A DNA stretch of 64,000 nt from Polytrichum commune (taxonomy: Eukaryota; Streptophyta; Polytrichopsida; Polytrichales; Polytrichaceae), in the NCBI GenBank assembly GCA_950295325.1, contig OX485803.1, forward strand, positions 72,677,554 to 72,741,553, read 5' to 3'. Position numbers and translations under genes: made by a program. Below, piece after piece: positions 5,217-35,984 of this stretch (position 1 is the first letter of the stretch; each line of letters starts with the position of its first letter). A model generated the notes under the pieces. The model was not told the origin of the DNA and searched no databases. It saw only the letters and a list, made by a program, of their open reading frames with translations.

Positions 5217-5407
5217 TTAATAGGATAACTATCATAAAAGGGTCTAAGCTATATATTACACGACAACTAAACTTGTATTAAATTAATCAAACATTTAGAA
5301 TGGTTAATTGGGACATTTTTATTCACAAGGCTTCTGAATCTTAAAAGAGGTCATTCGTGAACTAAGGATAAGTCCAAACCATCCCTTTGACTTGGAAACC
5401 TAAAGAG
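5217..5407 (+). repeat. Right copy of a diverged ~190-bp direct repeat
   Basis: Partner of 3722-3911, same orientation; see that entry. Confidence 0.55.
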
Positions 5408-5974: not shown

Positions 5975-7197
5975 GTGGTGTGTGAGCCCAAAGTATGTGC
6001 CCACATGTGCTCTTAATCTCATAGAACATTAAAATGTAGATTTAGTTGCTACACTGAATATTCGAAAAGATAAAAAGAATTATGTTTTTTAGCATGAATT
6101 TGAATTAATTTAGAAGCTTGGTGGTGAGTTACTTAGTGCTAGAATTTTGGAGGAATTAAGTTAGGAGTTAGTTGTGGGTTGTTAAGTGTTTGTAGTATAG
6201 AAGGATTAAGTTAAGGGTAGTTGTAGGTAGTTAAGTACGTAGGGTTAAGGTTAAGGGAGGCCAAGCCTCCTTGCTTGGAATGGGACTTGTGGTTGTTCAT
6301 TTTAGGGGGGGACTCAGTGTGCCCTAGGGAAATCCGGATCACCGGACAGGTGAGGCAATTGGTGCAGCTGCCAAAAAACAGGACACTTGTCAGCCCTAAA
6401 CCCACACCCTTTACGCGTCCTAGTCTTGGTGAGAGCTAAGGCTAACATGCACCTGATTTGTATGTCTGACCTAGTGCCACTGAGTCACACTCTCTCTCCA
6501 ATGGAAGCATTTATAAATCTCACACTTTTATTTAGAGAGCACAAGGTAATCAGTGTTTAAAAACACTCTGGCACCTTGTGATCACTTAACACCCACATTC
6601 CTTTCATAAAACCAACATGAAATGCTACTTAGACCATTACACTTCCTACCTACTGTGAGGCCTAAACCCCCACCCTTATGCGTCTGAGTCCGGGTGAAGA
6701 TTCAGACCTCACACGAATTCAAGTGGCCTCACATGCACCATTGAGACTTACCTCCATAGCACCCACAAAATAAATGAAGATCACACAACTTTATTCAACA
6801 AGGACAAGGTCACTAGTATTTAGAAATACTTCTTGTCCTTGTGATTATTGCAACACCACTCCAAATTGAAACCTACAGCTATAGTTTACTAATCATCCTA
6901 ATTACTTGCCCATAGCCTTGTGCAACGCCAATCCCACAGTGGCATGCCAAGCCTTCCTCCCAACTAGCCTCTACCTAATTAACCCATAATTAAGTATGTC
7001 CCCCTTGGTACCCTAATTACTCTACCTACTACCTAATCACTAAGTGCTCCAACTTCCCAATTGCTGGAATCCACATATCTCTTGTCCATCCTTTAAATTA
7101 TTATCAGCTGCTTGACCATGTGATAACTTCAGTATGCACAAGGTGCCTCGAACCCACCAATATGGCAGCTGGATGCATTCAACCCCTCAACTACCTT

Positions 7198-8104: not shown

Positions 8105-8174
8105 ACCTTGCAACAGTAACAAACAGCTTCAATTTACCCACACATTCGGTAACTGCTGTCGATTGTAGCGTCCC

Positions 8175-8187
8175 CAGGGTTGTCTAT
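8175..8187 (+). repeat. Left TIR of giant hAT
   Basis: CAGGGTTGTCTAT, an exact inverse of 23152-23164, preceded by TSD agcgtccc. Confidence 0.93.
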
Positions 8188-8254
8188 CGCGACGTCATGA
8201 CGGTGTCGTGCCGTCATGTCAGGTCGTGTCGTGACGGACCCCTCCGTCACGACA
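8188..8254. promoter_or_regulatory. Left subterminal repeats, likely transposase binding sites
   Basis: Several copies of an imperfect palindromic word lie just inside the TIR: gacgtcatgacgg (8191), ccgtcatg (8211), cgtgtcgtgacgg (8225) and ccgtcacgacac (8243). Subterminal repeats of this kind are known transposase binding sites in hAT elements such as Ac; the role here is inferred. Confidence 0.65.
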
Positions 8255-8454
8255 CAATAGGGTCCACGTAGGGTCAACATAGGGGGAATGGACTAGGGTG
8301 GGTAAAATACTTACCTTCTTGCCAAGGTGGCGTCCTATGTGGCAGAAAACGCCGACGTGGATGTGCATATTTCCCTTGCCAAGTAAACCATTTTGCCATT
8401 GTGTTTAGGGTTCTGTTAAAATCAAAGTAGAAAAATATGACTAAGGAGGGTGTG

Positions 8455-9288
8455 GGGCGGCCGGGGGCGGACGGTGGGGCGGACGGGAGAGGGGGGTGGT
8501 GCGGACGGCGGAGGGGGGTGGTGCGGACGGCGGAGGGGGGTGGAGCGGACGGACGGGGGGTGGTGCGGACGGGGGAGGGGGGTGGTGCGGATGGACGGGG
8601 GGTGGAGCGGACGGGGGAGGGGGGTGGAGCGGACGGGGGTGGGGCGGATGGAGGGGGGTGGAGCGGACGGGGGAGGGGGTGGAGCGGACGGGGGTGGGGG
8701 TTGAGCGGACGGGGGTGGGGCGGAAGGGGGTTGGGAACGGGGGGGAGAACGCTGGAGCGGACGGGGGAACGCGGGGGCGGATGGGGGGAACGCGGAGGGC
8801 TCCGTCCGCCCCAAGTTCCCTCACGTCCGCCCCACGTTCCCCCGCCGTGCGTTCACGTTCCCACCCGTTTCCTAACGTCCGCACCCGTTCCCTACCGCGT
8901 TCCCCCTAGTCCGCACCCGTTCCCCCCCAGTCCGCACCCGTTCCCTTCCCGTCCGCCCCGCGTTCCCTTCCCGTCCGCCCCGCATTCCCTTCCTGTCCGC
9001 CCACGTTCCCTCCCGTCCGCCCACGTTCCCTCCCGTCCGCCCCACGTTCCCTCCCGTCCGCCCCATGTTCCCTCCCGTCCGCGCTACGTTCCCCTCCCGG
9101 CCGCGCTACGTTCCCCTCCCGTCCGCCCGCGTTCCCCTCCAGTCCGCCCCACGTTCCCCTCCCGTCCACCCCATGTTCCCGTACGTTCCCTCCCGTCCGC
9201 GCTCCGTTCCCTTCCGTCCGCTCGAGTTCCCCTACGTCCGCCCCCTCGTTCCCTCCGTCCGCCCCCGCGTTCCCACGTTCCCCATACG
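8455..9288. repeat. GC-rich minisatellite array 1 (with internal inversion)
   Basis: Tandem G-rich units such as gcggacgggggaggggggtg occupy about 8455-8800. Near 8800 the array flips, and from there to about 9288 the plus strand carries C-rich units such as cgttccctcccgtccgcc. The change lies at a palindrome-like junction (gggaacgcggagggc/tccgtccgcccc). The array ends about 60 bp before the TATA box at 9351. The long Pro/Arg- and Gly-rich ORFs here are by-products of the repeat. Confidence 0.92.
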
Positions 9289-9350
9289 TCCTTTTCGTGC
9301 CCCATGTCAAATCCGACCGGGATCCCATAATGATTGTGCTCCCCTTTGCC

Positions 9351-9358
9351 TATATAAA
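9351..9358 (+). promoter_or_regulatory. TATA box for the kinase-like gene
   Basis: TATATAAA, about 230 bp before the ATG at 9584, immediately after minisatellite array 1. A pyrimidine-rich leader with repeated ttcactcac words follows. A possible 3' splice site (tttttttcccag) lies near 9510. Confidence 0.6.
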
Positions 9359-9583
9359 GCCGTGGGGTTTTAGTTCCCCTCACTTTCCTCTCCTCCCACC
9401 ACAAAGGGACCCGAGACCTTGTTGCCGTCCCAAGGACAGTGGCACCGCGCGGGTCTCAGGGGGTTTGGGAGGGCAGGGCAAATTGTGGGGGAACCCTCGC
9501 AATTTTTTTCCCAGATTCACGCACTCATTTCTACATTCACTCACTCCTTTTTACATTCACTCACTCACGCGGTTTTTTTCACG

Positions 9584-11500
9584 ATGGAGGGGGAGGACAT
9601 TGCTCCTTACCAAGACGAGGATACGAGGCTGCACCGTGCTTGGCTCCAAAGCACTGCACTTGCGCATACTGGAGAGGGTACGGGAAGCGAGGCCGGAAGT
9701 GGAAGCACTGCAGCACGTCCCCCACGTCCAGATCCTTTTCGGTTTGACGAAGAGTTCTTTGCAGTTGGCCATTCAGGAGGCAACCAAACACGTGGAAGCC
9801 GTGGAACACGTGGGAGTCGGGGAAACAGTGGACATAGAGGGAGAACAGGAAGGGGACCAAGCTCAGGCAGTTCCACCGATATAAATGCAACCACTCATGG
9901 AGAGTCCGTGCCACCACGATCTCCAACACGGCGGACATCAAGACCGGAGAGCCCTGCACGTGATGTACCTCAGGGTTCGGAGCATGGTGAAAGACGGGGA
10001 CAAAAACGCCCAGCAATTTCGGAAGGGACGGAGGAGGGGTCCGGGGTTTCAGGTTTGCAATCGAGGAAAAGGAAAAATAGAGGCAAACGCGACCCGCGGA
10101 TCGATGAGGCTCGAAACCATTGTAGGGTCGTGCTGTTGGAGTGGTTTAGAAATAACAACATGGTTTATTTGGAAAAAAAATACCTCAATGATGGTACAAA
10201 GGGGTTGGATTTGGTGAGGAACGATTTGATTCTTATTCTCACGGAAGCCACGGCTGGAGCGGAGTTTGAAGATGCTAGGGGCATGAGCGATTGGGGCACC
10301 TGGATTGAACAACAAGCCGTGGAAGCAATCTACAATCCAACAATGGCATATGATGTTGTGCATCCTAGCGAGGGAAGTAGTAGTGGCAGGAAGTCCGAGC
10401 TGTACATGAAGCTAGAGAATTGGAAAAGAGGCGTAATAGCAGCAAAAGGAACATCCGCCCGCAACCTTCCCATTTTTATTGACAGGCAGATGGCAGACAA
10501 CATTGCCACTCAGGGCCGGCAGGGTGTCATATGGTTGCCTAGGAATGCGGAGATCAAAGCCTTGGATAAGGAAATCTTCTAAGGGACCTTCGGAGTGGTG
10601 CGGAAAGTCGCAATTCATGGAGCATCATTCATCCCTAGCTGGATAGAGTGGGCTGGGAAGACCATGAAGGCCACGAATAGTTTGGAGAATCGAAAGGAAC
10701 GTTCAGTTGAAGCATTGGCGTGTCCAGTAGATCATCCTGGGGTAATCAAGCTACAATACCTCAATATGAAAACATACGAATCCTATTCGATGTGGTGGAA
10801 TGGAGGCTCCTTGAAAAATATGAGGATCTATAACTTCAGCGTTCCGAAAACCCACGAGCGCACAATCCTTCACATGCATGGGCCAGACTTTGAAGCACGG
10901 AAACGGTTGGTTGTATATCGAAGGCATCGAGCTTATTTGGCATGGGCTCTAATGTGCATTGTGGATGTAGTGCACAAGCATGACGTGTTGCACAATGACC
11001 TTAATCCCAACAATGTCATGCTGCATTTCCCACAAGACCGTGAGAACACGGTTTACATTGGTGTGTGTGATTGGGGCATGGCATCCTGGGGAGGTGAAGA
11101 CGCACCCTCCAACTATGGAAAAGATTCAGTGGATGAGATGAACAAGCACAAAGCAAAATACAACTGTGCTGGTCCAGAATTATTCCATGTACGAGGGCAA
11201 CGTGGAACATCCACCTCTCCGGTGAGGATGGCTCGGAAACATAGGCACACGTTTCTATCGGAGTCTTTCTCAGTGGGTGCTTTGGCAAAGAAGATTTATG
11301 CCAGGGATGCGACTTCCCCCTTGTTTCACCTAAACAATGATCCAAATGGCTTGAATATGCGGTTTGAGTTAGCATTGGATTCATTGACGAAGACCAATCC
11401 AGCGGAAAGGTCAACCATCACACACGTAGTGAACATTTTGAAGTCCCCTCCATACAACATGGTTAACCCGACAATGTGCTTCCGTGACATTGCAAAATAG
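9584..11500 (+). pseudogene. Protein-kinase-like cargo gene with RGG-rich N-terminus, one in-frame stop
   Basis: The start chosen is the ATG at 9584 (MEGEDIAPYQDED), downstream of the TATA box. The same frame is open for 332 codons, has a single TAA at 10580-10582, and is open again to 11500. The N-terminal ~150 residues are low complexity with RG/GR repeats (TRGSRGTRGSRG) and Ser/Pro stretches, followed by a basic KRKNRGKR. After the stop comes a kinase fold: glycine loop GTFGVVRKV, a catalytic loop HNDLNPNNVM (D at 10997, usual HRDLKPEN), DWG in place of DFG (11069), and CAGPEL in place of the APE motif. The stop lies exactly at the glycine loop. It may be a nonsense mutation, or part of a missed intron, since TCTAAG could act as an acceptor. 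The missing catalytic-loop Lys makes activity doubtful; a pseudokinase is possible. Confidence 0.75.
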
Positions 11501-11563
11501 ATTTTTTTTGTTTTTTTTGCAGCAATTTTGAATCATACCAATTTTGTAACCGTTGGAGATGTA

Positions 11564-11569
11564 AATAAA
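11564..11569 (+). terminator. Polyadenylation signal of the kinase-like gene
   Basis: AATAAA 64 bp after the stop codon at 11498-11500, following T-rich sequence. Confidence 0.55.
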
Positions 11570-12189
11570 GCCATCATTTTTTCATACAAAACTTGTATAT
11601 TGTATGAGGTTTATGGATCTTAGTGCAATGTTCATACTACTCCATGAGGCCTTTGCTCCATAATCGAGAAGAAGTCTATGGGAGGCTAACCAAGGTTCTC
11701 GCCTCTCGTGAGGCCACATCCTTCTTTCACATCGTTGTTATCACATCCATGTGCTAAGTTCAAGTTAACTATAGTTGTTTGTAATATGTCTTGAAAAAAT
11801 GCAGTTACCTATATTTATTCTAATTTTAGTATGCCACAAAATGTAGTCAACTATAGTTATATCTAGTTAACTAAAGTTGAGCACAATATTGCAATAGTTA
11901 TATCGGTTGTACACGTGATCCAAAACATCTCTAAATGTTATCTTTCTTCTACTCCCCACATATTGCACACTATAAATGTTAAACGTGTTAACAGTTAAAA
12001 AAATGGTACTCCCTTCTTTGTAAATCTGACTCTATAAACGTTAACGGATGAAATACAACCATAATATGGATGATAAAAACTACACATCCAGTTACATTGA
12101 TTCATATTCACTCGTGATTTGTAAACTTGATATTGAATAAAGTTTTGATTGGGTGTGCAATTTTATGAATGGTATTCTCTCACAAGGAA
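11570..12189. other. Intergenic DNA inside the giant hAT, no gene seen
   Basis: AT-rich, with several diverged copies of the word gttaactatagttg/agttaactaaagttg (11763-11880). No coding signal was recognised. Confidence 0.5.
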
Positions 12190-12229
12190 TCTTCACAATT
12201 GCTTATATTTATATTTATATAATTCACAA

Positions 12230-12800
12230 TCACTTTTTTTTGGAAGTTTGGACATATTCTTGGCCGTCCAAGTTGAGAGGCCGTGCGATTGAGTGGCCCA
12301 ACTTTGTTGATAGTCCAAAGAAATGAACTGAAAATAGCCAAGAAAATATAGTAAGGGTAGCCTTAGTTGGGCATAGTGTGAAGCCTCCAAAGGCCAAGCG
12401 CAAAGTCCAAACCTTTGGCCATGAACTCCCACGGCCTCTCGGCTTGGATGGCCAAAGTGTGAAGCCTCCAAAGGCCAATCCCAAAGTCCAAACTCAAAGG
12501 AGCATGCCACTTTATTCCTTGCTCAAAATAATCCCTCCAATCTAACGGCCAAGATCTTGTCAATGATTGATTATTTTAATGAAAAAAAAGTTCGGCCTCT
12601 CGATGGAAGTTTGGGTTGAGCATTTTGCTATACCCAATCTTTGCTCGAGAGGCCGAACTCTTGGCGCCATAACTTCCTAAAAGTGTTGCCACCTAGGCTC
12701 TTTTGGAGGCCACGTCCTTTGGACTTCGGCCTCTAGTGTGAAGGCCGAGAGGACGGACTTTGGGCATTTCAGCATTTTCATTGGTCCAAATGTTGAACCT
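12230..12800. repeat. Internal repeat block rich in GGCCTCTCGG / AAGCCTCCAAAGGCC words
   Basis: The word agtgtgaagcctccaaagg occurs at about 12374 and 12458 as a tandem duplication. Related inverted words (ggccgagaggac, ttcggcctctcg) recur down to about 12760. The block includes the hairpin at 12590-12658. Minus-strand ORFs 12193-12563 and 12677-12871 fall here and are probably not genes. It may be a small foldback insertion whose borders could not be set. Confidence 0.5.
12590..12658. repeat. Perfect 13-bp hairpin
   Basis: gttcggcctctcg at 12590-12602 pairs exactly with cgagaggccgaac at 12646-12658, with gggt/accc able to extend pairing inside the loop. Confidence 0.75.
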
Positions 12801-12851
12801 CTCAAAGTTTGGCCATATTGTGAACCGGCCCTTATATTTGCAATACATGTC

Positions 12852-13196
12852 TTATTCTTTTTTTGGCACAAATTGAAAATTCAAATTGAAAATACAACCA
12901 ACCCAGCCGAAACAGCGCAGCCTAAGTGGAAATCTAGAAATAATGCTCATTTGAGGCCTATCCTTCCAAGTAGGGACTAAGTTGCTACGGGTCACAATAA
13001 GACCTTTGACCCCCCAAATCAAATCAAATTTGTTAAGAATGTCATGGTAGGCCACGTCCGGGGCTTTTTCCAAGTCCCTAAGCATCTGTTTCCATTCAAT
13101 CCTCCCATACTCTGATTTGTAATACATGTCATAAAAACTAATGCAATTATTGTTTTGAAGTCTACCATCAAATGATATGTAAGATCGTATGTTCAC
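12852..13196 (-). CDS. Unrecognised ORF, 114 codons
   Basis: This minus-strand ORF inside the giant hAT has a balanced composition (for example EWKQMLRDLEKAPDVAYHD and SIISRFPLRLRC), unlike the low-complexity ORFs around it. It could be an exon of a captured gene or a chance ORF. No domain was recognised. Neither a promoter nor a polyadenylation signal was assigned. It lies between the kinase-like gene and the acidic-protein gene, opposite to both. Confidence 0.25.
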   Translation of the reverse strand: MNIRSYISFDGRLQNNNCISFYDMYYKSEYGRIEWKQMLRDLEKAPDVAYHDILNKFDLIWGVKGLIVTRSNLVPTWKDRPQMSIISRFPLRLRCFGWVGCIFNLNFQFVPKKE

Positions 13197-13339
13197 TTGT
13201 GGTTGGTTCTTTTTATGTACCAGTTTAAGCCAATACTAAAATAAAATGAACCTTATTCTATAAAATCTAGTGACACTACCATACAAGTTAGTAGAGATGT
13301 TGTATATTTTTTTAAATTATTCTATATATTTACATAACT

Positions 13340-13460
13340 ACAACTTATAATTTTGTGAAGAATAATACATAATACAACAAAGTTCAAATCAATACCTCTT
13401 TTGTGCACTCACATATACTCATACGGATTTAGTATAGTGTACCCCCCCCCAAATGATCAC
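13340..13460. repeat. Possible end of a small CAGGGAGTGCAC-type MITE
   Basis: The stretch caataccTCTTTTGTGCACTCAC...cagtgtacccccc resembles the right end of the MITE at 25221-25716 (ccccttttgtgcacccacgtgtataaata). Only one end is recognisable, and a run of nine C (13441-13450 region) replaces the expected terminus. Confidence 0.35.
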
Positions 13461-13884
13461 TAATGTGGGCCACATTAAATTTAAGCCCACACCAAATCCC
13501 TAGTTTAATATCAATGTGGACCATATTAATTTGTTTTTCTAGAATGTTCTAATTTGTGTAAGGTGTTGGTAAGATATCTTTATGAAGCCTATAGGAACTC
13601 GGGGGATGCACTCTACATTATGTTTGAGAATCACGTGCGTTCATGATCCCTTCTAAAAACCCCAATGTATACCATAAGTTATATGTCTAAGTAGAGATTG
13701 TGCCAACTTGAAGTAGTCCTCGCGATTTGCGAACGTTTAACTTTCGTTGTAGGCATCGTAAAAAAAAGCGGGTGGGTTCGTTGGAAAGCTGGGAACCTAA
13801 ACCCTCAAACCATGTATAGAAACACTTCTACATGAGTGAGAGAACAAAACAACGGCACATATGTGGTAGCAATTTGGAATGACG

Positions 13885-13931
13885 TAGGGTTTAGGGTTTA
13901 GGGTTTAGGGTTTAGGGGTTTAGGGTTTAGG
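13885..13931. repeat. Interstitial plant telomere-type repeat (TTTAGGG)n
   Basis: About six TTTAGGG units with one slipped unit (tttaggggttt). This is the Arabidopsis-type telomere sequence. Short telo boxes also occur in plant promoters; this one lies about 500 bp before the TATA box of the 14483 gene. Confidence 0.9.
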
Positions 13932-13937
13932 ATTTAT

Positions 13938-14262
13938 GAACCACAAAGGTTGAAGCACAAATATGTGAATTGTCGAGTGAAAGGGCAAGGGGATGCGTGT
14001 GGGTTGTGAAACCATACGAACCACTAAGGTTGAAGCTCAAATATGTGAATTGTTGAATGAAGATGGCATTCGGATGCCTAATATGCGTTGTGAAACCATA
14101 TGGACCACAAAGGTTGAAGCACAAATATGTACTTTGTTGAATTAATATGACATTCGAATGCGTGTGGGTTGTGAAACTATACGAACCACTAAGGTTGAAG
14201 CTCAAATATGTGAATTGTTGAATGAAAGGACAACCCATCAAATATAGAAGCTTCAAAGAGGT
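13938..14262. repeat. Four-copy tandem repeat, ~80-84 bp unit
   Basis: Units begin gaaccac(a/t)aaggttgaag at 13938, 14018, 14102 (as ggaccac) and 14183. Copies 1 and 3 share caaaggttgaagcac; copies 2 and 4 share ctaaggttgaagctc, suggesting duplication of a dimer. The minus-strand ORF 13927-14268 is a by-product. Confidence 0.85.
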
Positions 14263-14433
14263 TTCCAATGCGGGTGTCGGGGGACTTTTTCAAAAAGTGC
14301 AACTAACTTTTTGACTTCACCAACTTTCTTTTTATTCCTATTGTGTTGTCTTTATCCTACCAACGAGAATTAGATCCTCTACATCTTGGATTACATCAAA
14401 TATTGTATATTTCATAAAGTCCTTTGAGCTCAA

Positions 14434-14440
14434 TATATAA
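14434..14440 (+). promoter_or_regulatory. TATA box for the acidic-protein gene
   Basis: TATATAA in the context caatatataagtagag, about 45 bp before the ATG at 14483. It resembles the TATA of the 17-kb gene (ggtatataagtggag). A second TATATATAA lies at about 14460. Confidence 0.5.
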
Positions 14441-14482
14441 GTAGAGCATTTAGACTCATATATATAACGAGGGTAGAGTATC

Positions 14483-15043
14483 ATGGATAGGATGGGAGAG
14501 AAGAGAGACATGTTTGAGGGTCTAGGATGTGATGAGGAGATAGAAAATTTAAATGAACCCGATATTCCATTCAATCCATCAACCGAGCGTGAGAGAGATG
14601 AGAGATGTGCTAGGGATCGATTTCGGGATGAGTATGTCATGACTCCCTTCTTACAATCTACACAAGCTTGGAGGATGAGGGCGGAGGAGGACCAACGACG
14701 ATATGCGTCCAACTTTGAGATCGATGCGGTGGAGGATGACAACACACAATGCGTGGGTGGAGATCTAAATGATCTGATTGATTTGTGTGCGGATATTTTG
14801 GAGAAGCCCGGGGATGTGGATGTGGAGGAGACTTCAATCGACATTGAAGATGTCAAGGTAGCGGGAGAATCTTCAAGGACTTTGCATTTTCGTAAGAAGA
14901 GGAGAGGATTATCGCCTCATCGGCTACCATTGAAGGAACGGATGAAAGACCGAACGATTAGCTATGTTGATTTACTTCGACCGAATCCTCTCCCAAAAAT
15001 GGACCCTCGACGGAAGCCACAAGCATCTACGAGGTTGCCATGA
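14483..15043 (+). CDS. Unrecognised acidic 186-residue cargo protein, intact ORF
   Basis: The only complete, uninterrupted ORF among the cargo genes of the giant hAT. It starts MDRMGEKRDMFEGLG, has an acidic and charged body (for example TERERDERCARDRFRDEY, DVDVEETSIDIEDVKV), a basic KKRRG stretch near residue 140 that could be a nuclear localisation signal, and a Pro/Arg-rich C-terminus. No transmembrane segment or known domain was recognised. A TATA box lies 45 bp before the start, and AATAAA lies 97 bp after the stop, so it has the layout of a short intron-less gene. Upstream are telomere-type and 82-bp tandem repeats. The overlapping minus-strand ORF 14338-14856 is rejected. It could be an accessory transposition protein or a captured host gene fragment; the sequence does not tell. 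Confidence 0.55.
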   Translation: MDRMGEKRDMFEGLGCDEEIENLNEPDIPFNPSTERERDERCARDRFRDEYVMTPFLQSTQAWRMRAEEDQRRYASNFEIDAVEDDNTQCVGGDLNDLIDLCADILEKPGDVDVEETSIDIEDVKVAGESSRTLHFRKKRRGLSPHRLPLKERMKDRTISYVDLLRPNPLPKMDPRRKPQASTRLP

Positions 15044-15139
15044 CGGAAGTCAAGTTGACGGAATGAAGTGGAATATTAAATCGTGCATGGTTTGTTCATA
15101 TATGTGATTTATAAAGGGCATTAGTACCGTCGTCGCAAT

Positions 15140-15145
15140 AATAAA
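15140..15145 (+). terminator. Polyadenylation signal of the acidic-protein gene
   Basis: AATAAA, 97 bp past the stop codon at 15041-15043. Confidence 0.5.
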
Positions 15146-15499
15146 GTCATTACTTGTACATCGTTGTCTCCATAGGGGTGATAATTTGTTGGTCATCATA
15201 CTACATTGGTTACTTTGTTGCTTGAGGGATCCTTCATTAGTTTTGTGTGGATAAGTACACCGGTAATGATATTTAGTGTCACATATATTATTTGCAAAGG
15301 ACCTAAGTTAGATGGGGTGCGGATGGGGGGACGCGGGAATGTGCAGTAGAAATATTATTGCATATTCATGTAGAGGACTTCATTACCTATCCATGGATAC
15401 CAAGAACTCATATTTTGGACTTCATATGAATTTTTGAGAGCCAAAAAACCGAGACTATGTCCAAACTTCCAAAAAAAATTAAAAAGTGCAGATTCAAAG

Positions 15500-16540
15500 G
15501 AACTCCGGAGCGGACGTATGGGAACGCTAGAGCGGACGCAGGGGAACTCTAAAGTGGACGTAGGGGAACATGAGGCGGACTTATAGGAACGTTGGAGCGG
15601 ACGTAAGGGAACATGGAGCGGATGGGGGGGGGGGGCGGGGGGGAGCGGACAGGGGGAACGCGGGAGTGGACGTAGGGGAACATGGGGCGGACTTATAGGA
15701 ACGTTGGAGCGGACGTAAGGGAACATGGAGCGGACGGGGGGGAGCGGAAGGGGGGGGGGGCGGGGGGAACGCGGGAGCGGACGTAGGGGAGCGGACGTAG
15801 GGAACGGAGGGGCGGACGTAGGGAACGAGGGGGCGGACGTAGGGAACGAGAGGGCGGACGTTTGGGAACGGGTGCGGACGGGAGCGGGAACGGGTGCGGA
15901 CTGGGGGGGAACGGGCGCGGAAGGGAGGGAACGGGTGCGGATTGGGGGGAACGCGGGGGGCGGACGGGGGCGGGAACGGGTGCGGACTGGGGGGGAACGG
16001 GCGCGGAAGGGAGGGAACGGGCGCGGAAGGGAGGGAACGGGTGCGGACTGGGGGGGAACGGGCGCGGAAGGGAGGGAACGGGTGCGGACTAGCGGGGAAC
16101 GGGCGCGGACGGGAGGGAACAGGTGCGGACTGGGGGGAACGCGGGCGTGGACGTAGGGGAACGGGCGCGGACTGGTAGGGAACGGGTGCGGACTGGAGGG
16201 GAACGCGGGGGGCGGACGTAGGGGAACGAGTGCGGACGGGGGCGGGAACGGGTGCGGACTGGGAGGGGAACGGGCGCGGACTGGGAGGGGAACGGGCGCG
16301 GACGGGAGGGAACGGGTGCGGACTGGGGGGAACGCGGGCGTGGACGTAGGGGAACGGGCGCGGACTGGTAGGGAACGGGTGCGGACTGGAGGGGAACGCG
16401 GGGGGCGGACGTAGGGGAACGAGTGCGGACGGGGGCGGGAACGGGTGCGGACTGGGAGGGGAACGGGCGCGGACTGGGAGGGGAACGGGCGCGGACGGGA
16501 GGGAACGGGTGCGAACAGGGTGGGAACGGGGAGCGGATGG
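15500..16540. repeat. GC-rich minisatellite array 2
   Basis: Units of roughly 20-24 bp such as gggaacgggtgcggactggg run G-rich on the plus strand throughout, ending directly before the TATA box at 16546. A 193-bp block (16141-16333) is repeated next to itself (16334 to about 16512) without a difference that I could see, a sign of recent unequal exchange. The left part (15510-15740) is made of longer, more diverged units containing gtaggggaacatgg(a/g)gcgga. Long ORFs on both strands in this array are compositional artefacts. Confidence 0.92.
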
Positions 16541-16545
16541 AAGGG

Positions 16546-16552
16546 TATATAA
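16546..16552 (+). promoter_or_regulatory. TATA box for the coiled-coil/RING gene
   Basis: TATATAA lies about 6 bp after the last unit of minisatellite array 2, roughly 560 bp before the main open frame. A first exon and intron between 16580 and about 16980 are likely; ttccacag near 16880 could be an acceptor. Confidence 0.55.
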
Positions 16553-17103
16553 GTGGAGGGGACCATTTACATACCCCACTCCACTCCTTGTGGGCGCCCG
16601 GACGACCCTCCTCTACTACAGAGTGCGGGGTTTAGCGGGGTGCTCGGAGGAGTTAAGGATCCTTTTTTTGGGATCCTTTTATACTTTTTTTACTGACCTG
16701 TTTGTGGGTGTGATCCACGTGGACCCGTTCCCTTGTGACGTGGCATATTGCCTTTTTGGCATATTCCTTGTGACACGCCAGTCAACTGGCCTCTGCGTGA
16801 GCGCTGGTAGCGGGGGGCTCGAAGGGTGTGCTGAATTTTTGTACTTTAATTTTTAACGACATTTTTTAACTAATTCCACAGCAACACTATTTTGAAGTGT
16901 ATGCTTGGATGTTTTGTAGCACTATTATGAAGTGCAATTAGTAATTTAAAAATTAGAGTTTTAGATTAGAATTAGAAACTACAATTTGGGTGGATCCGGC
17001 AAGTGAAGGATTTCCAGACATGGCAAGTGGAGGATCTGGAGACATGGCAAGTGGGGGATCAGGTTGTCACAGATCATATATACGCAAGGCCGCTGGGTTA
17101 TAG

Positions 17104-18684
17104 TGGGATGTTTATGATGACAACACCCAAAAAGCCAAGGCAGGTTGGGAGAATGTACCACAACCGTGGTCAGTGAAGACTGCAATGCAGTACGTGGGCT
17201 TCCTTCACTTTGATCGGTTGTGGCCAAGACCTTGTCACGAGCGACATCAGAAGGCCATCAGTGCGAGTTATATGCAGCTTGATGACGTGGAGGCAAAATG
17301 GAGATTCCTAACGATACTTAGAAGTATCTCCAATTTGGATAGATGGCCCAAGAGTGCAATTCCAAAGTCGGTGGCGTGTATGATGTATGCGGAGCACGTG
17401 TTGCGAGTTAGGGTGGATTGGTCAAGTTTGGCTACCCTGCATGGTCAAAAATTTGGGAGTATTGGAATTGCATTCACTAAATGCACAGTTCCAGATATTC
17501 CATACACTCCCGTTCCGGAGTGGTTCAGGAAGAATCCTCGACTAGTGGACGAGCCTGGGACCCCAATTCCAGAGGGTCGGGAACCAAAAAAACCACGTAA
17601 TCGTAAACGACCAGCCAATGACGTGGAGATGGCCATCGAGGAGGCGTTTGAGCATATGGATGAGGGCATGGAGGCAAATGTCGAGGTCAACAACCTGATC
17701 AACGACGTGGTTAACGAGGTCCTAGACGAGGTAAACCTTGGTGAACATGGAGCGGACCCGACGGAGAGCAGAATGGAGGAATTGCGTAAGCAACATGCGT
17801 TGGAAATTCCTGAGTATAAAACGATGATTTTCGAGTTGGAAAATCGAGTTGCAACACTTACGATGGGAGAGGCTAGCAGTTCAAGTAGTACACCAATTAA
17901 CCTTCAGTCTTTGAAAGCAGAGAGGGACGCAGCTTTACAAGAGGCCAAGATTGCAAAGTCACAAGCTCTGGAGGTATGTATGAGGAATGAAGTAATGCGA
18001 GGAAAGATGGAGGCTTTGCAAAAGGAGGTGGTGGACATGCAACAACAACTTCAAGTGGTCAATGAAGTGGTTGTTGATCACGAAGCCAAGATTGGCGGAC
18101 TGGAGGAGCAGAATGCAAGGTTGAAGAAATTTCTGTTGGATGCGATTGTGAAGCGCAAAAATATGAGGACAAGCACATTGCTTGCTATGGCCAAGGCTCA
18201 TCAATTTGAAGCTGAGTTTGAGAGCATCCAGAAAGAATGGAACCGCAATCAGAGAATGCGGAATATGATGCTCATGTCATGGCCAGAAGATGAGCAGATG
18301 TACCCTAGTAGGTGGGATAGGAATAATGAGTGGACAATGCCAAGCGGGAGCATCGATTGGCGTCAAGTGACTGACCCAGATCACCATTGGGATGTGACCC
18401 AAGTGCATGAATATCCATTCCGCATGAGGGGTGAGTTATTATGGCCAAATCCACATACAATGGTCTTCGACGGAACCGCATGTGCGATTCGCCAATGTCC
18501 ATTTGGCCCAGAGGGATGCTATCAAGTTGGATCATGTGGGGCCCAATTCCATCCACAATGTCTAATAGGAAATATGATCAAGAAACGCCAATGTCCTCAT
18601 TGCAGATCACCCTTCCACCCTCGTTTGTACCTCCAATTTGGCCTTCGGGATTACATACCTAACGACTGGGTATTAAAGCCATGA
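17104..18684 (+). pseudogene. Coiled-coil protein with C-terminal RING-like domain, cargo of the hAT
   Basis: The frame is open from 17104 to a TGA at 18682-18684, about 526 codons. It opens just after a TAG at 17101-17103, and upstream the frame continues with a Gly/Ser repeat (DMASGGSG twice, about 17015-17060), so the true start lies further 5' or in another exon. In order: an N-terminal globular part (WDVYDDNTQK, WPRPCHERHQKA), a basic patch KKPRNRKRP that may be a nuclear localisation signal, a long coiled coil (LKAERDAALQEAKIAKSQ to ARLKKFLLDAIVKR, about 17910-18150), then a Cys/His cluster ending CGAQFHPQC...CPHCRSPF (18480-18615), the pattern of a RING finger. RING proteins are commonly E3 ubiquitin ligases; that role is inference. 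Downstream homologous reading continues past the stop, so the gene is probably truncated. Confidence 0.65.
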
Positions 18685-19268
18685 GACTTTCCCTTCGATC
18701 TTCAAGAGTTTGATGGGGAGAATGTTGAGTGGAGTTGGTTATACAATTGTGCGAAGGTTGAGCTATGGCACGAGAACAGAGATGGCGACTGGACACGGAA
18801 TGCACGTCAAATTTTGTATGTTGCAGACGAGTTGTATCCCAACAAGCCCCCGATCATGGCTTGAAAAGATTTTTATACCAAACTCTTGAATGGCATTGGG
18901 ATTCAACCAGCAGACAATTAAAGAGAGGCATTCATCCTCCTTGGTACAATGCAGCAGGTCTCGAATCAGTATCGGAGCATGATTTGGAAGAAGATGCAGA
19001 TGACATGCCTACGGAACGGGATCCGAGATATGAATTGCAGTTAGAGGTGGGGTACCACAAGAACAGGCTGCAGTTGGCTGCAATTGATGCACTCTTGCAT
19101 AGAGTTGCGGATGATGCGGTATTGAGATGGCTAAATGGTGGGCCTAGACCACGTAATGCCGTTCCATTGTCTCCTGGTAGTCGTCCATACCTCACCCGTG
19201 GAACAACGCGAAGATGGAAGCGGGGGAATCATCACAAGCACGACGAGGATCTACTTCAGCTAGAATAG
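18685..19268 (+). pseudogene. Broken 3' continuation of the coiled-coil/RING gene
   Basis: Directly after the TGA at 18682-18684 the same frame reads sensibly for about 60 codons (FDLQEFDGENVEWSWLYNC, HENRDGDWTRNARQILYV), then meets further stops near 18862 and 18918. From about 18917 a different frame (open 18765-19268) reads coherent sequence (GIHPPWYNAAGLESVSEHD, LQLAAIDALLHRVADD) to a TAG at 19266. This pattern fits a once longer protein broken by nonsense mutations and a frameshift. No domain was recognised. An alternative is that some stops lie in an intron. Confidence 0.5.
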
Positions 19269-19827
19269 ACCTTGATTCAGATTCGGATTAGGCATTTTTG
19301 TACCATGTTTAGGAAGTTGTATAGGAACGGATGAAGACTTTGGACACAATGAACATATTTCATGTTCAAAGTATATATAATATAAAGAGGATTTACCGAC
19401 AAGTTGTCATTTCTAAGATCGTGTAAAAGATAACATATGGATGCCACATGTTTTAATGTTATTCGAAATTTTTAAAAACTTACTTGAATATTAGTAATTC
19501 ATATGATAGTCTAACCAAAAGTACTATTGACTACATAGTCAATATTGAATACCACATAAAGATATAATTATATAAAACGGATAGAAAGGTCCTCAAAAAG
19601 AGGATGTCACCAACGAAGCATGTACAATCGAGCAATAGGGGATTGCAATATTTATAAAAGCATATTCTTTAAGAAGCTCAATAAATAAACATAAAACTCC
19701 ATTCACAGTAAGAATTATACAAAATAGTAATTAATAAAGGCATAACATGTTATTGGAAATTAATTGCAATGCTAAGTTGACAACCATATTGTATTTTCAA
19801 AATTTTAAAAAACATGCAATAAATAAT
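19269..19827. other. AT-rich DNA inside the giant hAT, no gene seen
   Basis: This lies between the convergent 17-kb gene and the transposase. It contains the likely 3' ends of both. No other signal was recognised. Confidence 0.5.
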
Positions 19828-19833
19828 TTTATT
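19828..19833 (-). terminator. Candidate polyadenylation signal of the hAT transposase
   Basis: AATAAA on the minus strand, about 160 bp past the last stop of the transposase tail frame (19991). Confidence 0.4.
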
Positions 19834-19990
19834 ACTATAATAAAATGTTACAACTTCGAAGGTAACGTTCGCTTTGTGGTCTAAATGTCTTACCGAAGGC
19901 CCTAAGGTTGTAACTTGTATCAATTTTGACGTAAGTAATAAATTATGGGAGTACGTGGGAGTACCGAAATACCACATTTGTGCAAAACCA

Positions 19991-22303
19991 TTACGTTCGA
20001 ATCCGTACTGTGGGATCATTTGCTTCGACACATCTTGGGTCCTCTTCAGACTCGTCTGTGCTGCAATCATCATCCGTTTGGGGAGTCGCGCTCCGAAGAT
20101 GCAACTCTCGGTCACGTTGTGAGAAAATTATCTTCTTGGTCGGCCGGGAGCCCTCTGCATCTTGTATGCCATTTTCATCTAGATGTGGTCTACCCTCATC
20201 TTCATTGTAGTCTTCAGCAGTAAACGGAAGCGATCTTCCCTGATACCTCTTCCTAGTACGTTTGACACCTCTCGTAGTTCTCTGACGCCCTCCACCCGTA
20301 CCACGACTTGAGTGCACTTCATCTCTACTTCCATCTATAAAAACATCCCCCGTTGTACTTCCGCCTCCAACTCCAAGGCCACCTGTTCCATTGGATTGAC
20401 TGTGTGGAAGTGAAACTGATGCGGATGGAATTGCAATTGGTATGTTCTCAACAACATGTGGACGAACAGATTGACGACGTGGCGCCTCTGTAGTAACATT
20501 TCTTGAAACATTGTGTATAGCAACCAAAGTAGCACCCACCGCAGTTGCACGTGAAACACCCAATCTAGAAGTATTGGCAATACTTCGAGTGAGAGGACGA
20601 CGTTGACCTTGTGCATGCACTTGCACCGTAGAGGTTGATGCAGTTCTTTGAAGAGCACGGAATCGAGTTGTAGGTATTTCAGGAACATTGGGCGTTTGAT
20701 CTTCTATACGATGGTTGGATATGAGGGAGGCGTCCATGGATTCAGAATGTACTCGGGCTGGAAGTGGATCCTGTTGAACGTGCGTTGGCTCATTTGCGGG
20801 TAGTACATTGTCACCTTCACCAAAAGAAAGAGAATCGCTCCGAGGTTGCAAGGAATCTACTTCAATTCCTACATTCTCACTTGCCCCCATAGCAACATTA
20901 TGGGCAGGGCGAAACCCTTGTCCAGTGTGGAGAGTTTCAAAAGGCGGTCCTCCAATAGACCCCTCATGATCGTCATGCATTCCGTCGTTATGTTGGGGGA
21001 CATCCGGTTCATCAAAATCAAACACCCCAAGGTTTCCATCACTACCATTGCCATCCTCATCTTCTGAATCATGATTCTCGGAATCGAGGTCATCCAAATC
21101 AAAGTCGATGTCATCAACATTGTTGTCATCATCATTTCCGGCCCTATCATTTGGATCCACGTCATCTTCATCGTCATCTTCTTCGTCAAGGTCATCGTCA
21201 GAATGGACCTCATTCATTTGGACCATTGCGCAGGTCTTGGGCCCCTCCGATGTCGAATGAGCCTACTATTGGTATATATGTAGACGAGGTCCTCGGCACG
21301 ACTATGCTTCAAGCGATTGCGACTCTTGTTGTGAACATATGAGTACATGCTCCAATTGCGTTCACATGCGGATGCGGAACATACTTGTGCAAGGATACGT
21401 CTTGCTATTGTTTGGAGGGCTTTAGCTCCACCTCCCATTGCATCCCACCATTCATGGAGAGGTGTGGCATGCACGCTCGGGTCAGTAGAATCAGCAAAAG
21501 GCCCTCGATTTTCAAGGAAATCTTGGTACTGGTGGAGGATTTGGACATAAGTGTCCTCATCTTGAGCAAGCCTGCGAAGAACTCGATTTAGGATTGTCCT
21601 CGAATTCTCATCCTCATGGAGTGGGGCCCAACCACGTAGAAGCGGATTTAACATCGCTCCAGCCCAATGTAGATCATTCAACATCAACCTCCATCTATTT
21701 TGAAACGTTAGCATAGCATTTGCAGCAAGCTCAGGGCTTAAGCGAAATGGAGGTTTACTGAATCCATGAATATGGGTTTGTAAATCATGCATGACCCTCC
21801 AAGCCATTCCCATTGCAGGCGCCTTGCCATCAAATACACGAAGAGCTTTAACAACCGGGATCACCATATACAAGAAATTTTCGCACGTGTTCCAGAATCC
21901 ATCAGAACGTATAAAGCTTCGCACAGCAGAGCCCTTCAGAATGTTGAGTGGATTGGGACATAAGCAAAGGCTTTGTTTCACTAATTACGGAGTCCGCTAT
22001 AATAGGCTCCAGAGGTACAATATCTGGCACCGGAGAGTCCTCATTTACAATGCCTACATGTAAGGGCACAATGCCTCCGCAATGTTCAAACAAGACCCTA
22101 ATATGCGGGGGTACCATCCTACATGTGGAAACATCACAAGCACCCCCTACAGGAGGTCTATAACCAAGGTGGGCCAACATTCTATTTCCTCGGTAAGATA
22201 TGACGAACGGGCAAAACCTACATTTAACCTGCCTTTGTGATTTACCGGGAACCATCCCCTTATCCTCGTACCAATGATCCCATGCATCATTTCGGCGTGG
22301 CAT
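19991..22303 (-). pseudogene. hAT transposase, internally deleted and frameshifted
   Basis: Read on the minus strand. The start chosen is the ATG at 22303 (MPRRNDAWDHW), just after a good 3' splice site (tttgcag), which suggests an intron in the leader. The first block (22303-21902) is a BED-type zinc finger (WDHWYEDKG, CRFCPF, RMLAHLGY, CDVSTC). The second block (21981-21214) is in another frame and carries the hAT dimerisation domain (ARRILAQVCSASACERNWS, NRLKHSRAEDLVYIY). The third block (21226-19991) is a 411-codon tail, very acidic at first (DLDEEDDDEDDVD) and later basic. The part that should lie between the BED finger and hATC, with the RNase H-like core and its first two catalytic acidic residues, is missing. 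The protein is therefore not expected to catalyse transposition. Confidence 0.88.
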
Positions 22304-22533
22304 GACTTCAACAAAACCTGCAAATACAAACAAGTTAGAGCAAGTAACTTTGATCGCATACTAGGTCCTGTTCAAGAGTGCCACAAGGGCAACCCTAATT
22401 CACAGTCACTAGATTGGACAAAGTATCCTCTGCATTCGGGTCTCACGCATTCAATCCTCACTCCTCAAAGGAGAATCAAAAGACTTGAGACACACTATGT
22501 CAGTGGAGGCAAAAATGGCACCTTGAACCCTCA

Positions 22534-22540
22534 ATTTATA
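22534..22540 (-). promoter_or_regulatory. TATA box for the hAT transposase
   Basis: TATAAAT on the minus strand, 11 bp from the edge of minisatellite array 3, about 230 bp before the ATG at 22303. An intron ending at about 22334 would lie in the leader. Confidence 0.55.
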
Positions 22541-22550
22541 GTATTCGAAT

Positions 22551-22935
22551 CGGACGGGGGAGCGGACGGAAGGGAGGGGGGGGGGACCGGACGGGGAGCG
22601 GACGGACGGGGGGGGGGACCGGACGGGGGGGCGGACGGAGGGGGGGGAGCGGACGAGGGAGCGGACGGACGGGGGGGAGCGGACGGGGGAGCGGAAGGGG
22701 GAGCGAACGGACCGGGGGGAGCGGACGGGGGGGCGGACGGGGAAGCGGACGGAGGGGGGGGAGCGGACGGACGGGGGGGGGGGGGGACGGGAGAGGGGGG
22801 GAGCGGACGGGGTTGGGAACGGGAGCGGACGGGGGGGAACGGTGGCGAACGGGGATTGTGAACGGGAGCGGACGGGGGGGAACGGGGGCAAACGGGGGTT
22901 GGGAACGGAGGCGGACGGGGGGGCGGATGGGCTCT
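22551..22935. repeat. GC-rich minisatellite array 3
   Basis: Units such as gggagcggacggggg, G-rich on the plus strand and therefore C-rich on the coding strand of the transposase next to it. Same unit words as arrays 1 and 2. ORFs 22451-22982 on either strand are by-products. Confidence 0.92.
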
Positions 22936-23084
22936 AGTAAATTTTTCCCCACTTTACCTTTACTTTGCTGACATGTCATCACACGTGGACATTGTAAATC
23001 CTACGTGTCAGAAATGGGTTAATGTAATTACACAAAAAAATCGGTAAAATTCAAGTCCGTCAGGATAAAGACAGCATCCGGCAT

Positions 23085-23151
23085 AATGTCGTGACGGATA
23101 CGTGTCGTGACGGCACGACATTATGTCGGGATTACCCTCCGTCACGACACA
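23085..23151. promoter_or_regulatory. Right subterminal repeats, likely transposase binding sites
   Basis: Copies of tcgtgacgg occur near 23089 and 23104, with gcacgaca and ccgtcacgacac (about 23139-23150) closer to the TIR. They mirror the left end and are shared with the deletion derivative at 35034. Confidence 0.65.
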
Positions 23152-23164
23152 ATAGACAACCCTG
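23152..23164 (-). repeat. Right TIR of giant hAT
   Basis: Exact inverse of 8175-8187, followed by TSD agcgtccc at 23165-23172. Confidence 0.93.
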
Positions 23165-25220
23165 AGCGTCCCCTTTGCAGGCTTCTGAGTCCTGCCAGCC
23201 CTTCATTTGATCACACCACCTTTCTGCAACCCAGAGCTGAGGACTCGAGCAGTCGCCCCTGGCCCCTTCACCTATTGAGCAATCTCATTTCTCGTTCTCC
23301 TCTACTTTAGTGCTCAGAAGTTGAGCAGGAAGCCAAAACAAATGTGGCTCCCAAATGCCTGCTCAGTCTTACTGCATTCAGCTTTTTCCCCCATCCAACG
23401 ACCCAGTTCCGTGGTTCTGTGGCCAGATCCTTCAAACTAACCCCAACCAATACCCAACAACTGCAATCCACACTCTACCGCAACCGTTCCAGGCTTCTCT
23501 ATATCTCCCAACCGATTCCAATTTAGCAATTTGCCCTGCTCGCATTAGTTGCCCATTCCCACTCTCTGGTTCGCCTGGTCTGAGCCATTCAGCTGCTACT
23601 AGACTTGATTCCCGGTTGATAGATTTCAGTCGGCAAAGGGTAGCCGAGAAAAACTGCTAGCTTCCCTTAATTGACATTGACCACCCTGCTGTCGTTGAGA
23701 CTCAAAATCCAACTTTGTACCCTCTAGCCTCAATTTCTGTGGAAGAAGCTAAATTTCATCTCCCTCCGTTATCGCCTCAAGGCTGTGCAATTTGTTGGGT
23801 GAACCCTCATCTCTTTTGGTCATGCAACTTACTTTGACTGATTTCGAAGTCATCCAACTACCCCCATCCGATGTCACCACAGGCCACAACACTGAGCCTT
23901 TGGTGAGGTTGAATCTGCCATGTTCACCTCAGCTCTCGCACCTTCATCCCGCTTCTATCCCCTGGTGACTCCAGAGCTCCGCTCCAGAGCAGTAACCCAA
24001 CCTCATCCATTGTGCCTCATCAATGTGCCCACAACCCTGCGCTTCTTCGCTCAATCCCCATTCGGACAGAGCTTCTGCAAGGTTGCGGCTCTCTTCCCCT
24101 GCCCAACAGCCTTTGTGTTGAGAGAGCCCGAGTCCAGCAGCCTCTGTAACCGTCACAGTTCCGAGAGTCCGGAAAAAGCTAGGGTGAGCAGTGCTCCCCC
24201 CCTTAATGTGGATACCAACTAATCCCAATTCGAACACTTAAACACCAACCTTCTAACTTGACTTATAATTCTTACCATCCCATCAACTAAAACCTAATTA
24301 ACTCATTCCACCCTCTAAGCTACAAAGAACTAACTATCCATCCCAAAGCTAAAATCACAATCCCACCAAAGACTCCACTCTTTTTATGTTTAGATAAACT
24401 GATGCCACATCAAAGCCTAACTTTTAATAATTTTAAGGTTTCAAAAACCTATGTGTGCTCAACTTTGGGCTCACACCTACTCTGCTATTGCCCTACTTAC
24501 GTAAACAAGTTAACTAATGCCACTAATCAATCTAATTCCCTCTCTAATTCTAGCCATCTTTTAAATGAGAGCCCCCTACCCCCTAATGCACGACCACCTG
24601 CCCTTTGAGTTAAAACAGAACGGCTGCCTTCAATCACTCTCTTCGAGCTGTGAATCTACGATGTCCGCACTCAGACCGAGCCCGTCACTGCCCGTCACTG
24701 CCCGTCAAACAACCTCTCACTGCCCGTCAAGACAGCTTCCTTCCCAGTTAGTGTCTGCTTTGTCTGTAGGACCATTGGTCGAGCTTGTCCTCTGCTTCCG
24801 TGGGCCTCGCACTACCAGTCGCCAGTGCCTCAGAATCGCTCACCGGCTGCAACATGGCCCTCAAACCAACCTGCTTGCAGGTCAATTGCTCCCTGATTCC
24901 ACCCAATCTCCACATCCTGAACACTTCGAGCCAGCATTGAGCTGGGTCGCAATCAGGCCAACCTAAAACCTATTCTTCCATTCAATTGCAATATCATGTT
25001 CGACTCCTCCTGCAACAGTGTGGCTCTGCCCTATAGATTCATTTGATTTCATTCGGCAGCTCCCTCACATTACTCACCCCGCACACTACAACTCTTAGAT
25101 TAGCCACACTCCTCAGATTCTGTCCAACTCCTTGTGTGAGGCCAAACCACCCACCCTTAAGCGTCCTAGTCCGGGTGAGGGCGTGGGGATCACATTCATG
25201 TTCACATAGCTCCCTTTTAC

Positions 25221-35025: not shown

Positions 35026-35033
35026 CTAGACAT

Positions 35034-35984
35034 CAGGGTTGTCTATTGTGTCGTGACGGAGGGTAATCCCGACATAATGTCGTGCCGTCACGACACGTAT
35101 CCGTCACGACATTATGACGGATGATGTCTTTATCCTGCCGGACTTGAATTTTATCGAATTTTTTGTGTATTCACATTACCCCATTGCGGACACGTAAGAG
35201 TTACGATGTCCACGTGTGATGACATGTCAGCAAAGTAGAGGTAAAGTGGGGAATAAAATTACTAGCGCCCATCCGCCCTCCCGTCCGCCCCCGTTCCCCG
35301 TACCCTAACCCTGCTCCCTTAGCCCATTAACATGTTCCCTAACCCGTTCCCTACGTTCCCTCCCGTCCGACCCCCCCGTCCGACCTTTTCCCGTCCTCCC
35401 TTTTCCCGTCCGACCCTCCCCCCCGTCCGACCCCCCGTCCTCCCTCCCGTTCCCATCCATCCCGTCCTATCCAAACCTCCTAAACCCGCTCCCATCCCCC
35501 GCTCCCTACGTTCCCACACGCTCCCCGCGTTCCCCCCCGTCCCCCCCCCCCCCATTCCCACTTACCTTCCCGTCCTCCCCCCCGTCCGACCCATCCCCCC
35601 GCCCGACCCTCACCCCCATCCAACCCCATGTTCCCCCGCGTTCCCACACGTCCGCCCGCGCTCCCCACCCGTTCCCCCCGTCCGACCCTCTCCCCTGTCC
35701 AACCTACACCCTCCTTAGTAATATTTTATTACTTTGATTTTAACAAAATGGTAAACACAATGGCAAAATGGTTTACATGCCAAGGGAAATATGCACATCC
35801 ACGTCGGCATTTTTTGCCACATAGGATGCCACCTTGGCAAGAAGGTAAGTATTTTACCCACCCTACTAGGTTGACCCTAGTTTGACCCTACGAGGAGCCT
35901 ATTGTGTCATGACGGAGGGGTCCGACCCGACACGACGCGTCATGACGGCACGACCCCGTCATGACGTCGCGATAGACAACCTTG
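35034..35984 (-). mobile_element. 951-bp deletion derivative of the giant hAT
   Basis: The ends CAGGGTTGTCTAT (35034) and ATAGACAACCTTG (35972-35984, one mismatch) lie within the perfect 8-bp TSD ctagacat (35026-35033 and 35985-35992). The left ~240 bp match the inverted right end of the giant element, and the right ~280 bp match its inverted left end, including the subterminal tcgtgacgg words. The middle (about 35268-35700) is the same kind of GC-rich minisatellite, C-rich on the plus strand. It codes for nothing; ORFs 35319-35718 are repeat artefacts. It inserted in the gag-protease element. Confidence 0.93.
35268..35700. repeat. GC-rich minisatellite of the hAT derivative
   Basis: C-rich units such as cgttccctcccgtccgaccc, related to arrays 1-3 of the giant element, flanked directly by the shared terminal sequences. 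Confidence 0.9.

Follow-up and report, generated by a model that had tools for sequence, protein, structure and literature searches.

How does a DNA transposon of the hAT superfamily, whose elements are normally one-gene transposons, come to enclose a protein-kinase-like gene, a gene for a small acidic protein and a coiled-coil/RING gene? We addressed this question in a 64-kb stretch of Polytrichum commune DNA (64,000 nucleotides of contig OX485803.1; hereafter the window), in which a hAT-type element of 14,990 bp occupies positions 8175-23164. The observation of this element is confirmed. An earlier note on the same DNA, made from the letters alone, had left it open whether the element captures genes or belongs to a family that stably carries several cargo genes. 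Our analysis favours the second reading over the first: the cargo frames recur uninterrupted, a transposase gene and a RING gene adjoin each other together with an array on a foreign contig (L001), longest-contig sizes are shared between proteins of the set, and the RING gene and transposase evolve under purifying selection. The element very probably belongs to a stable multi-gene hAT family. Taken as a whole, the locus is probably best explained as a degenerate, non-autonomous copy of an old large-hAT family, whose complete members would encode four proteins. Likewise, the kinase and RING genes, perhaps together with the acidic open reading frame between them (ORF2), are likely accessory genes serving the element, while an anti-silencing role of these genes can be put forward only tentatively.

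Ends, target site and a short family member

The terminal features that the earlier note described all hold. The 13-bp terminal inverted repeats (TIRs; CAGGGTTGTCTAT) match each other perfectly, the 8-bp target site duplication (TSD; AGCGTCCC) is perfect on either side of the element, and the subterminal repeats comprise three copies of the 10-mer GTCRTGACGG per end (Table 1). In addition, the right TIR shares its inner end with a 21-mer (CTATTGTGTCGTGACGGAGGG), of which an exact inverted copy lies near the left end. All 12 occurrences of the 10-mer in the window lie within 78 bp of one of four element ends, three at each end of the large element and of a second, 951-bp copy, compared with a mean of 0.085 and a maximum of 3 in 200 order-1 Markov copies of the window. 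This layout matches the anatomy expected for putative transposase binding sites.

The 951-bp copy, which lies in the opposite orientation, was the only match when the whole large element was compared with the rest of the window. It has TIRs with 0 and 1 mismatch, a perfect 8-bp TSD of its own (CTAGACAT, at 35026-35033 and 35985-35992) and 78-80% identity to both ends of the large element. Since a second family copy is thus present in the same window, a chance origin of the ends of the large element is very unlikely. The short copy, possessing the ends alone, would have moved in trans. A comparison of the in silico joined flanks with the window gave short repeat matches only, with no uninterrupted empty site, and no Rfam family was found in the window at gathering scores.

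Table 1. Positions of the features of the large element and of its 951-bp relative in the window.
Feature	Position	Strand	Details
Left TSD	8167..8174		AGCGTCCC; identical to 23165-23172
Left TIR	8175..8187	+	CAGGGTTGTCTAT; 13 bp, exact match
Left subterminal motifs	8194..8260		GTCRTGACGG x3; exact inverted copy of 21-mer CTATTGTGTCGTGACGGAGGG
GC-rich array upstream of kinase gene	8448..9290		20-22-bp unit (GTTCCC...GTCCGC); orientation switch at ~8800
TATA-like box, kinase gene	9351..9357	+	
Protein-kinase-like gene	9584..11500	+	638 codons, 1.9-kb frame; one in-frame TAA at 10580 (glycine-rich loop)
Fold-back (MITE-like) repeat, spacer 3' of kinase gene	12250..12820		inverted repeats I1, I2, I3, I14
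Telomere-like TTTAGGG run and tandem repeat upstream of ORF2	13885..14227		run at 13885-13936; 84-bp repeat x3.6
TATA-like box, ORF2	14434..14440	+	second at 14459; AT-rich stretch
ORF2, acidic protein	14483..15043	+	186 amino acids; called by codon score; no Pfam match
GC-rich array upstream of RING gene	15499..16545		same 20-22-bp unit; directly upstream of TATA-like box
TATA-like box, RING gene	16546..16552	+	
Coiled-coil/RING gene, decayed	17020..19291	+	stops at 17101 (TAG) and 18682 (TGA); frameshifts close to 18852 and 19211
hAT transposase relic	19991..22303	-	BED-like finger, core deletion, PF05699, frameshift near 21220, acidic tail
TATA-like box, transposase gene	22534..22540	-	
GC-rich array upstream of transposase gene	22551..22925		related unit, spaced less regularly; immediately precedes TATA-like box
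Right subterminal motifs	23088..23155		GTCRTGACGG x3; 21-mer CTATTGTGTCGTGACGGAGGG
Right TIR	23152..23164	-	CAGGGTTGTCTAT; 13 bp, exact match
Right TSD	23165..23172		AGCGTCCC; identical to 8167-8174
Non-autonomous family member	35034..35984	-	951 bp; both ends and array

The four genes and their putative promoters

The hAT transposase relic and the three plus-strand cargo genes named in the earlier note are real as well, although their extents and integrity had to be corrected: the kinase gene is a single frame with one stop, the RING gene runs to ~19291 with 2 stops, 2 frameshifts and a lost cysteine, and the transposase relic includes a 411-codon acidic tail frame and is without ~295 residues of its core. 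The relic, on the minus strand, carries the PF05699 dimerisation domain (42.3 bits, cut-off 21.4), and its BED-like finger matches PF02892 under the cut-off (E-value 0.042; 14.3 bits, cut-off 20.6). The core deletion, near 21975, removes the CDGWDN and CTDNAP motifs that are present in the relative P0074 and that we take to hold the catalytic aspartates. Because of this deletion and the frameshift, the large copy is predicted to be unable to move itself.

Relatives were sought in a protein collection, with the kinase and transposase searches scoring the 8000 candidates with the most shared words. Many of the kinase, RING and transposase matches are fragments, shorter than the full proteins. 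For the transposase, 75 relatives were found, 19 of which were aligned (alignment A3); the best (90% identity, 1020 amino acids) carries both PF04937 and PF05699, and the PF04937 core deleted from the window copy is present in P0074 and P0078. At least one relative originates from a moss, since P0092 is named as Ceratodon purpureus M758_UG198100, located on a 112-Mb contig.

The kinase gene has a codon score of 0.187 in frame, compared with 0.084 and 0.092 in the other plus frames. Among its 49 relatives, the best full-length match is uninterrupted over 662 amino acids at 84% identity. An alignment of 36 of the 49 matches with the window protein (A1, 37 rows) contains the signature of eukaryotic protein kinases: the glycine-rich loop and the K, E, HxD, N and DxG residues are conserved in 35-37 of the 37 rows, while for the P and E of an APE-like site further on the numbers are 33 and 30. 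These residues are conserved in the window row too, which however has its stop in the glycine loop. A further alignment (A5) holds 29 of the 49 matches. In a structure model of the relative P0001 (mean predicted local distance difference test score, pLDDT, 69; predicted template modelling score 0.56), residues 341-660 score at least 70 in every 10-residue block, and the kinase half is thus modelled with fair confidence. Another relative, P0033, is named from a bin of Gyalolechia, a lichen-forming fungus. Moreover, in the 567-residue protein P0004 (longest contig 2,609 bp), a transposase acidic tail is joined in frame to a kinase, which would reflect either a fusion by deletion within an element of this kind or a join made in assembly.

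The RING gene has 24 relatives, the best of which is uninterrupted over 769 amino acids at 94% identity. All 24 were included in one alignment (A4), and 11 of them, together with the window protein, in another (A2). The profile of this gene matches the RING fingers of RNF38, RNF24 and ZNRF3; against PF13639, P0060 passes the cut-off (37.0 over 27.3) and P0050 falls just under it (25.6). In the window copy, the second RING cysteine is replaced by arginine. The relatives nearest to the window have A or G at the usual fourth zinc ligand and an extra cysteine nearby, while the distant members P0058, P0060 and P0061 keep a histidine at this position, making a zinc-ligand swap within P0050-P0061 possible. 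The extra cysteine (C512) occurs in 15 of the 17 rows with a letter at this position, the other two having F. An acidic, D/S-containing C-terminus is present in 11 of the 24 relatives, and the remaining 13, which were judged to be truncated from their ends only, stop earlier. In 10 of these 11, the acidic stretch sits behind hydrophobic residues that match a loose pattern; the tail presumably resembles a SUMO-interacting motif.

ORF2 was recognized by its codon score (0.259 in frame vs 0.098 and 0.107 in the other frames of the same strand); the maximum across 672 spacer windows, which also served as the background, was 0.016. Among 500 Markov copies of 11501-15500, 2 contained an open frame as long as this one, and a Pfam scan of ORF2 gave no match. 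Directly upstream of it, about seven telomere-like TTTAGGG units of the plant type adjoin an 84-bp tandem repeat. Between the kinase gene and ORF2 lies a fold-back repeat rich in GGCC/GGCCTCTC motifs, possibly a nested miniature inverted-repeat transposable element (MITE) or other nested insertion, for which no TSD was established.

Three of the four genes share a putative promoter layout, in which an array of a GC-rich 20-22-bp unit ends 0 to ~75 bp upstream of a TATA-like box. ORF2 is the exception, being preceded by the telomere-like run and the 84-bp repeat instead. Two hexamers of the unit are concentrated in the two elements: of the 88 GTCCGC copies in the window, 84 fall in the large element, 3 in the small one and 1 elsewhere, and the 99 copies of GTTCCC divide into 79, 10 and 10.

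Recurrence of the gene set and rival explanations

Three loci (L001, L002 and L003) were found by scanning public genome contigs with the transposase alignment. Their hAT-like sequences occur in bins named as a cyanobacterium, Halorubrum and Lachnospiraceae, and probably represent eukaryotic contamination, which is also the simplest explanation for L001, a 6,291-bp contig in the cyanobacterial bin. L001 encodes the transposase C-terminus and acidic tail (41-2083), adjoined in the same direction by an intact RING gene of 855 amino acids (2828-5395). Upstream of the latter, a TATAAAA box seen by eye is preceded at 6 bp by a GCGGAC unit, and positions 6142-6291 form an array of the same 20-22-bp unit as in the window, up to 84% identical. 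Scanning the public genome contigs with the kinase alignment gave no DNA relative of the kinase, and no relative was found when viral contigs were scanned with P0001 and the alignments A3, A5 and A2.

Between the window and L001, we compared the proportions of nonsynonymous (pN) and synonymous (pS) differences, skipping stop codons. The RING gene (575 codons, 49.7% amino acid identity) gave a pS of 0.79 and a pN of 0.34, and thus a pN/pS of 0.43 (bootstrap 0.39-0.50), with 0.48 (0.37-0.59) for the 117 codons of its C-terminus. For the transposase, pN/pS was 0.18 (0.13-0.24) over 220 codons of the C-terminal region (78.6% identity) and 0.53 (0.47-0.61) over 396 codons of the acidic tail. With a pS of 0.72-0.79, synonymous sites are at or close to saturation, so that these values overstate the true ratio of nonsynonymous to synonymous substitution rates. 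Judged from these sequence comparisons, both the RING gene and the transposase are under purifying selection between the two loci.

Two further linkages are suggested, indirectly, by equal longest-contig sizes. A value of 476,656 bp is common to the kinase P0025 and the RING protein P0064, and one of 15,563 bp to the kinase P0021 and the transposase P0078; these are the only matches across the lists of 49 kinase, 24 RING and 74 transposase values (74 of the 75 transposase matches, one being without a value). In a kinase tree of 30 rows, midpoint-rooted for drawing, the window lies inside a clade of 20 rows, and P0021 belongs to one of the first-branching pairs of this clade, whose branching order the tree leaves open. 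Because of this position of P0021, the association may date back to the root of the clade.

These findings can be combined into a mechanism. The four proteins encoded by complete family members would be a protein kinase, a small acidic protein, a hAT transposase ending in a long acidic tail, and a coiled-coil/RING protein whose acidic C-terminus is SUMO-interaction-like. An intact copy would provide transposase in trans, and this enzyme would bind the subterminal motifs and TIRs, excise the element and, as expected from hAT biology, reinsert it by cut-and-paste with an 8-bp duplication. The accessory proteins might keep the promoters of the element active or remove host silencing proteins: the RING protein could act as an E3 ligase on SUMO-marked targets, the kinase as a regulator or partner that protects or activates the element, and the promoter arrays could provide sites for binding, in analogy to VANC and VANDAL. 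A bolder version, which we consider somewhat unlikely, would be a giant hAT clade of the moss lineage, in which the kinase, a SUMO-directed RING ligase and an acidic cofactor act both on host silencing proteins and on the array promoters of the element itself, forming a virus-like host-manipulation set linked to the transposase across deep divergence.

Several points weigh against a four-protein family with accessory genes of this kind. With regard to linkage, two of the three cases rest on equal longest-contig sizes rather than on DNA, without a chance estimate; L001 is without a TIR, and its transposase and RING genes are in tandem, while those of the window are convergent. None of the DNA records seen combined two TIRs with an intact set of the four genes. 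The search for relatives covered the kinase, the RING protein and the transposase, each of which has uninterrupted ones. The kinase scores 26.8 bits against PF00069, below the Pfam cut-off of 31.7, and its constraint was judged on protein only, from the 36 of 49 aligned matches, with no DNA relative. For the RING protein, E3 ligase activity is not certain because the relatives nearest to the window have A or G at the fourth zinc ligand, and its fold model is poor (mean pLDDT 50), too weak for a structure search. Finally, the TATA-like boxes of all four genes were called without a chance control.

The alternative that survives best, albeit as an improbable one, is a stable hAT family with cargo genes that are useful to the host or neutral with respect to transposition, as in Starships, instead of being machinery of the element. 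Purifying selection alone is silent on whose benefit is selected, and host regulators commonly include kinases and RING E3 ligases. However, genes of the set are found paired again in strongly diverged sequences, and element-specific arrays precede the genes, an argument limited by the fact that RING relatives were seen as DNA only in L001 and kinase relatives not at all. That a hAT element captured host genes in a single event, in the style of Pack-TYPE transposons, is very improbable: the domains are host-like, and Pack-hAT elements exist in maize (excerpted text of PMC8903248), but the same transposase-RING pair and array are found on the foreign contig L001 at 50% protein identity, full-length open frames occur among the kinase and RING relatives, and longest-contig sizes are shared by kinase and RING as well as by kinase and transposase. 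Just as improbable is a composite or assembly artefact, with two elements or later-inserted cargo between unrelated ends, which a single underlying assembly and the fold-back repeat at ~12250-12820 might suggest but which the perfect TIR and TSD pair, the 3+3 subterminal motifs, the recurrence of the same ends in the 951-bp copy, the arrays of one unit near both ends, mid-element and in the small copy, and the transposase-RING adjacency on L001 all speak against.

The window also contains other repeats outside the large element. A Tc1/mariner-like transposase relic (1041-2329) consists of two overlapping frames, the first matching DUF7769 and, below the cut-off, HTH_Tnp_Tc3_2, and the second without a Pfam match. 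Pieces of long terminal repeat (LTR) retrotransposons comprise a reverse-transcriptase-like frame recognized by eye (30111-30755), an aspartyl protease (33643-34437) and an integrase core (43103-43963). Furthermore, long tandem arrays with units of ~33-94 bp are located at 41307-42338, 38304-38573 and 47674-48122.

Comparison with known systems

Known members of the hAT superfamily include Ac, hobo and Tam3, and a CAGGG start is typical of hAT TIRs. The superfamily is characterized by TIRs of 5-27 bp and an 8-bp TSD (excerpted text of PMC12506042). The element shares with it a 13-bp TIR starting with CAGGG, the 8-bp TSD, subterminal motifs, PF05699 and a short derivative, and PF04937 is found in the core of its relatives. 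The RNase-H-like core itself is deleted in the window copy, which points to a decayed hAT member and a loss of activity rather than to another family. The element differs from typical hAT transposons in its size of ~15 kb, its four genes instead of one, the acidic transposase tail of ~400 residues and the promoter arrays. No description of a hAT element with kinase and RING genes appeared among the matches listed in the open-access literature of PubMed Central (PMC), a weak absence that covers titles and the starts of abstracts, and the word kinase is absent from the main text of a paper on Physcomitrium transposons (PMC7466625).

Large size and many genes are also found in the Starships of fungi (in part after PMC12506042, as excerpted), which in contrast have a tyrosine recombinase as captain; membership was rejected, as a Pfam scan of 7 pieces translated from the element gave no DUF3435 tyrosine-recombinase match. 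ToxhAT, now ToxTA, is a 14-kb element of fungi with a TA TSD that was reclassified from hAT to Tc1/mariner-like, according to the same partial source (PMC12506042). It resembles the present element as a large, cargo-bearing Class II transposon once filed as hAT, whereas the TSD here is 8 bp and the transposase is hAT. Pack-hAT elements carry captured gene fragments and are non-autonomous by origin (PMC8903248, in the portion available). They likewise have hAT ends around host-like coding sequence, but in the family described here whole genes recur with the transposase. Pack-TYPE membership was rejected on the basis of whole genes with uninterrupted relatives and of their linkage to the transposase.

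Mutator-like elements (MULEs) have a TSD of 9 bp; with a TSD of 8 bp and a hAT transposase, membership of MULE/VANDAL was rejected. The VANDAL MULEs of Arabidopsis carry vanA, vanB and vanC, and are thus comparable as plant DNA transposons with accessory genes (PMC5735166, as excerpted). In contrast to these, the present element is a hAT, a kinase and a RING protein take the place of VANC as its likely accessory proteins, and anti-silencing is proposed here from sequence. The maintenance of the RING gene, and apparently of the kinase gene, beside the transposase until synonymous saturation implies that they help the element to spread or to survive silencing. If this is true, some annotated moss kinase and RING genes may be transposon genes, mosses with their easy laboratory genetics would offer a test system for transposon counter-silencing, and the hAT superfamily would join the small number of plant DNA transposons in which accessory genes are known.

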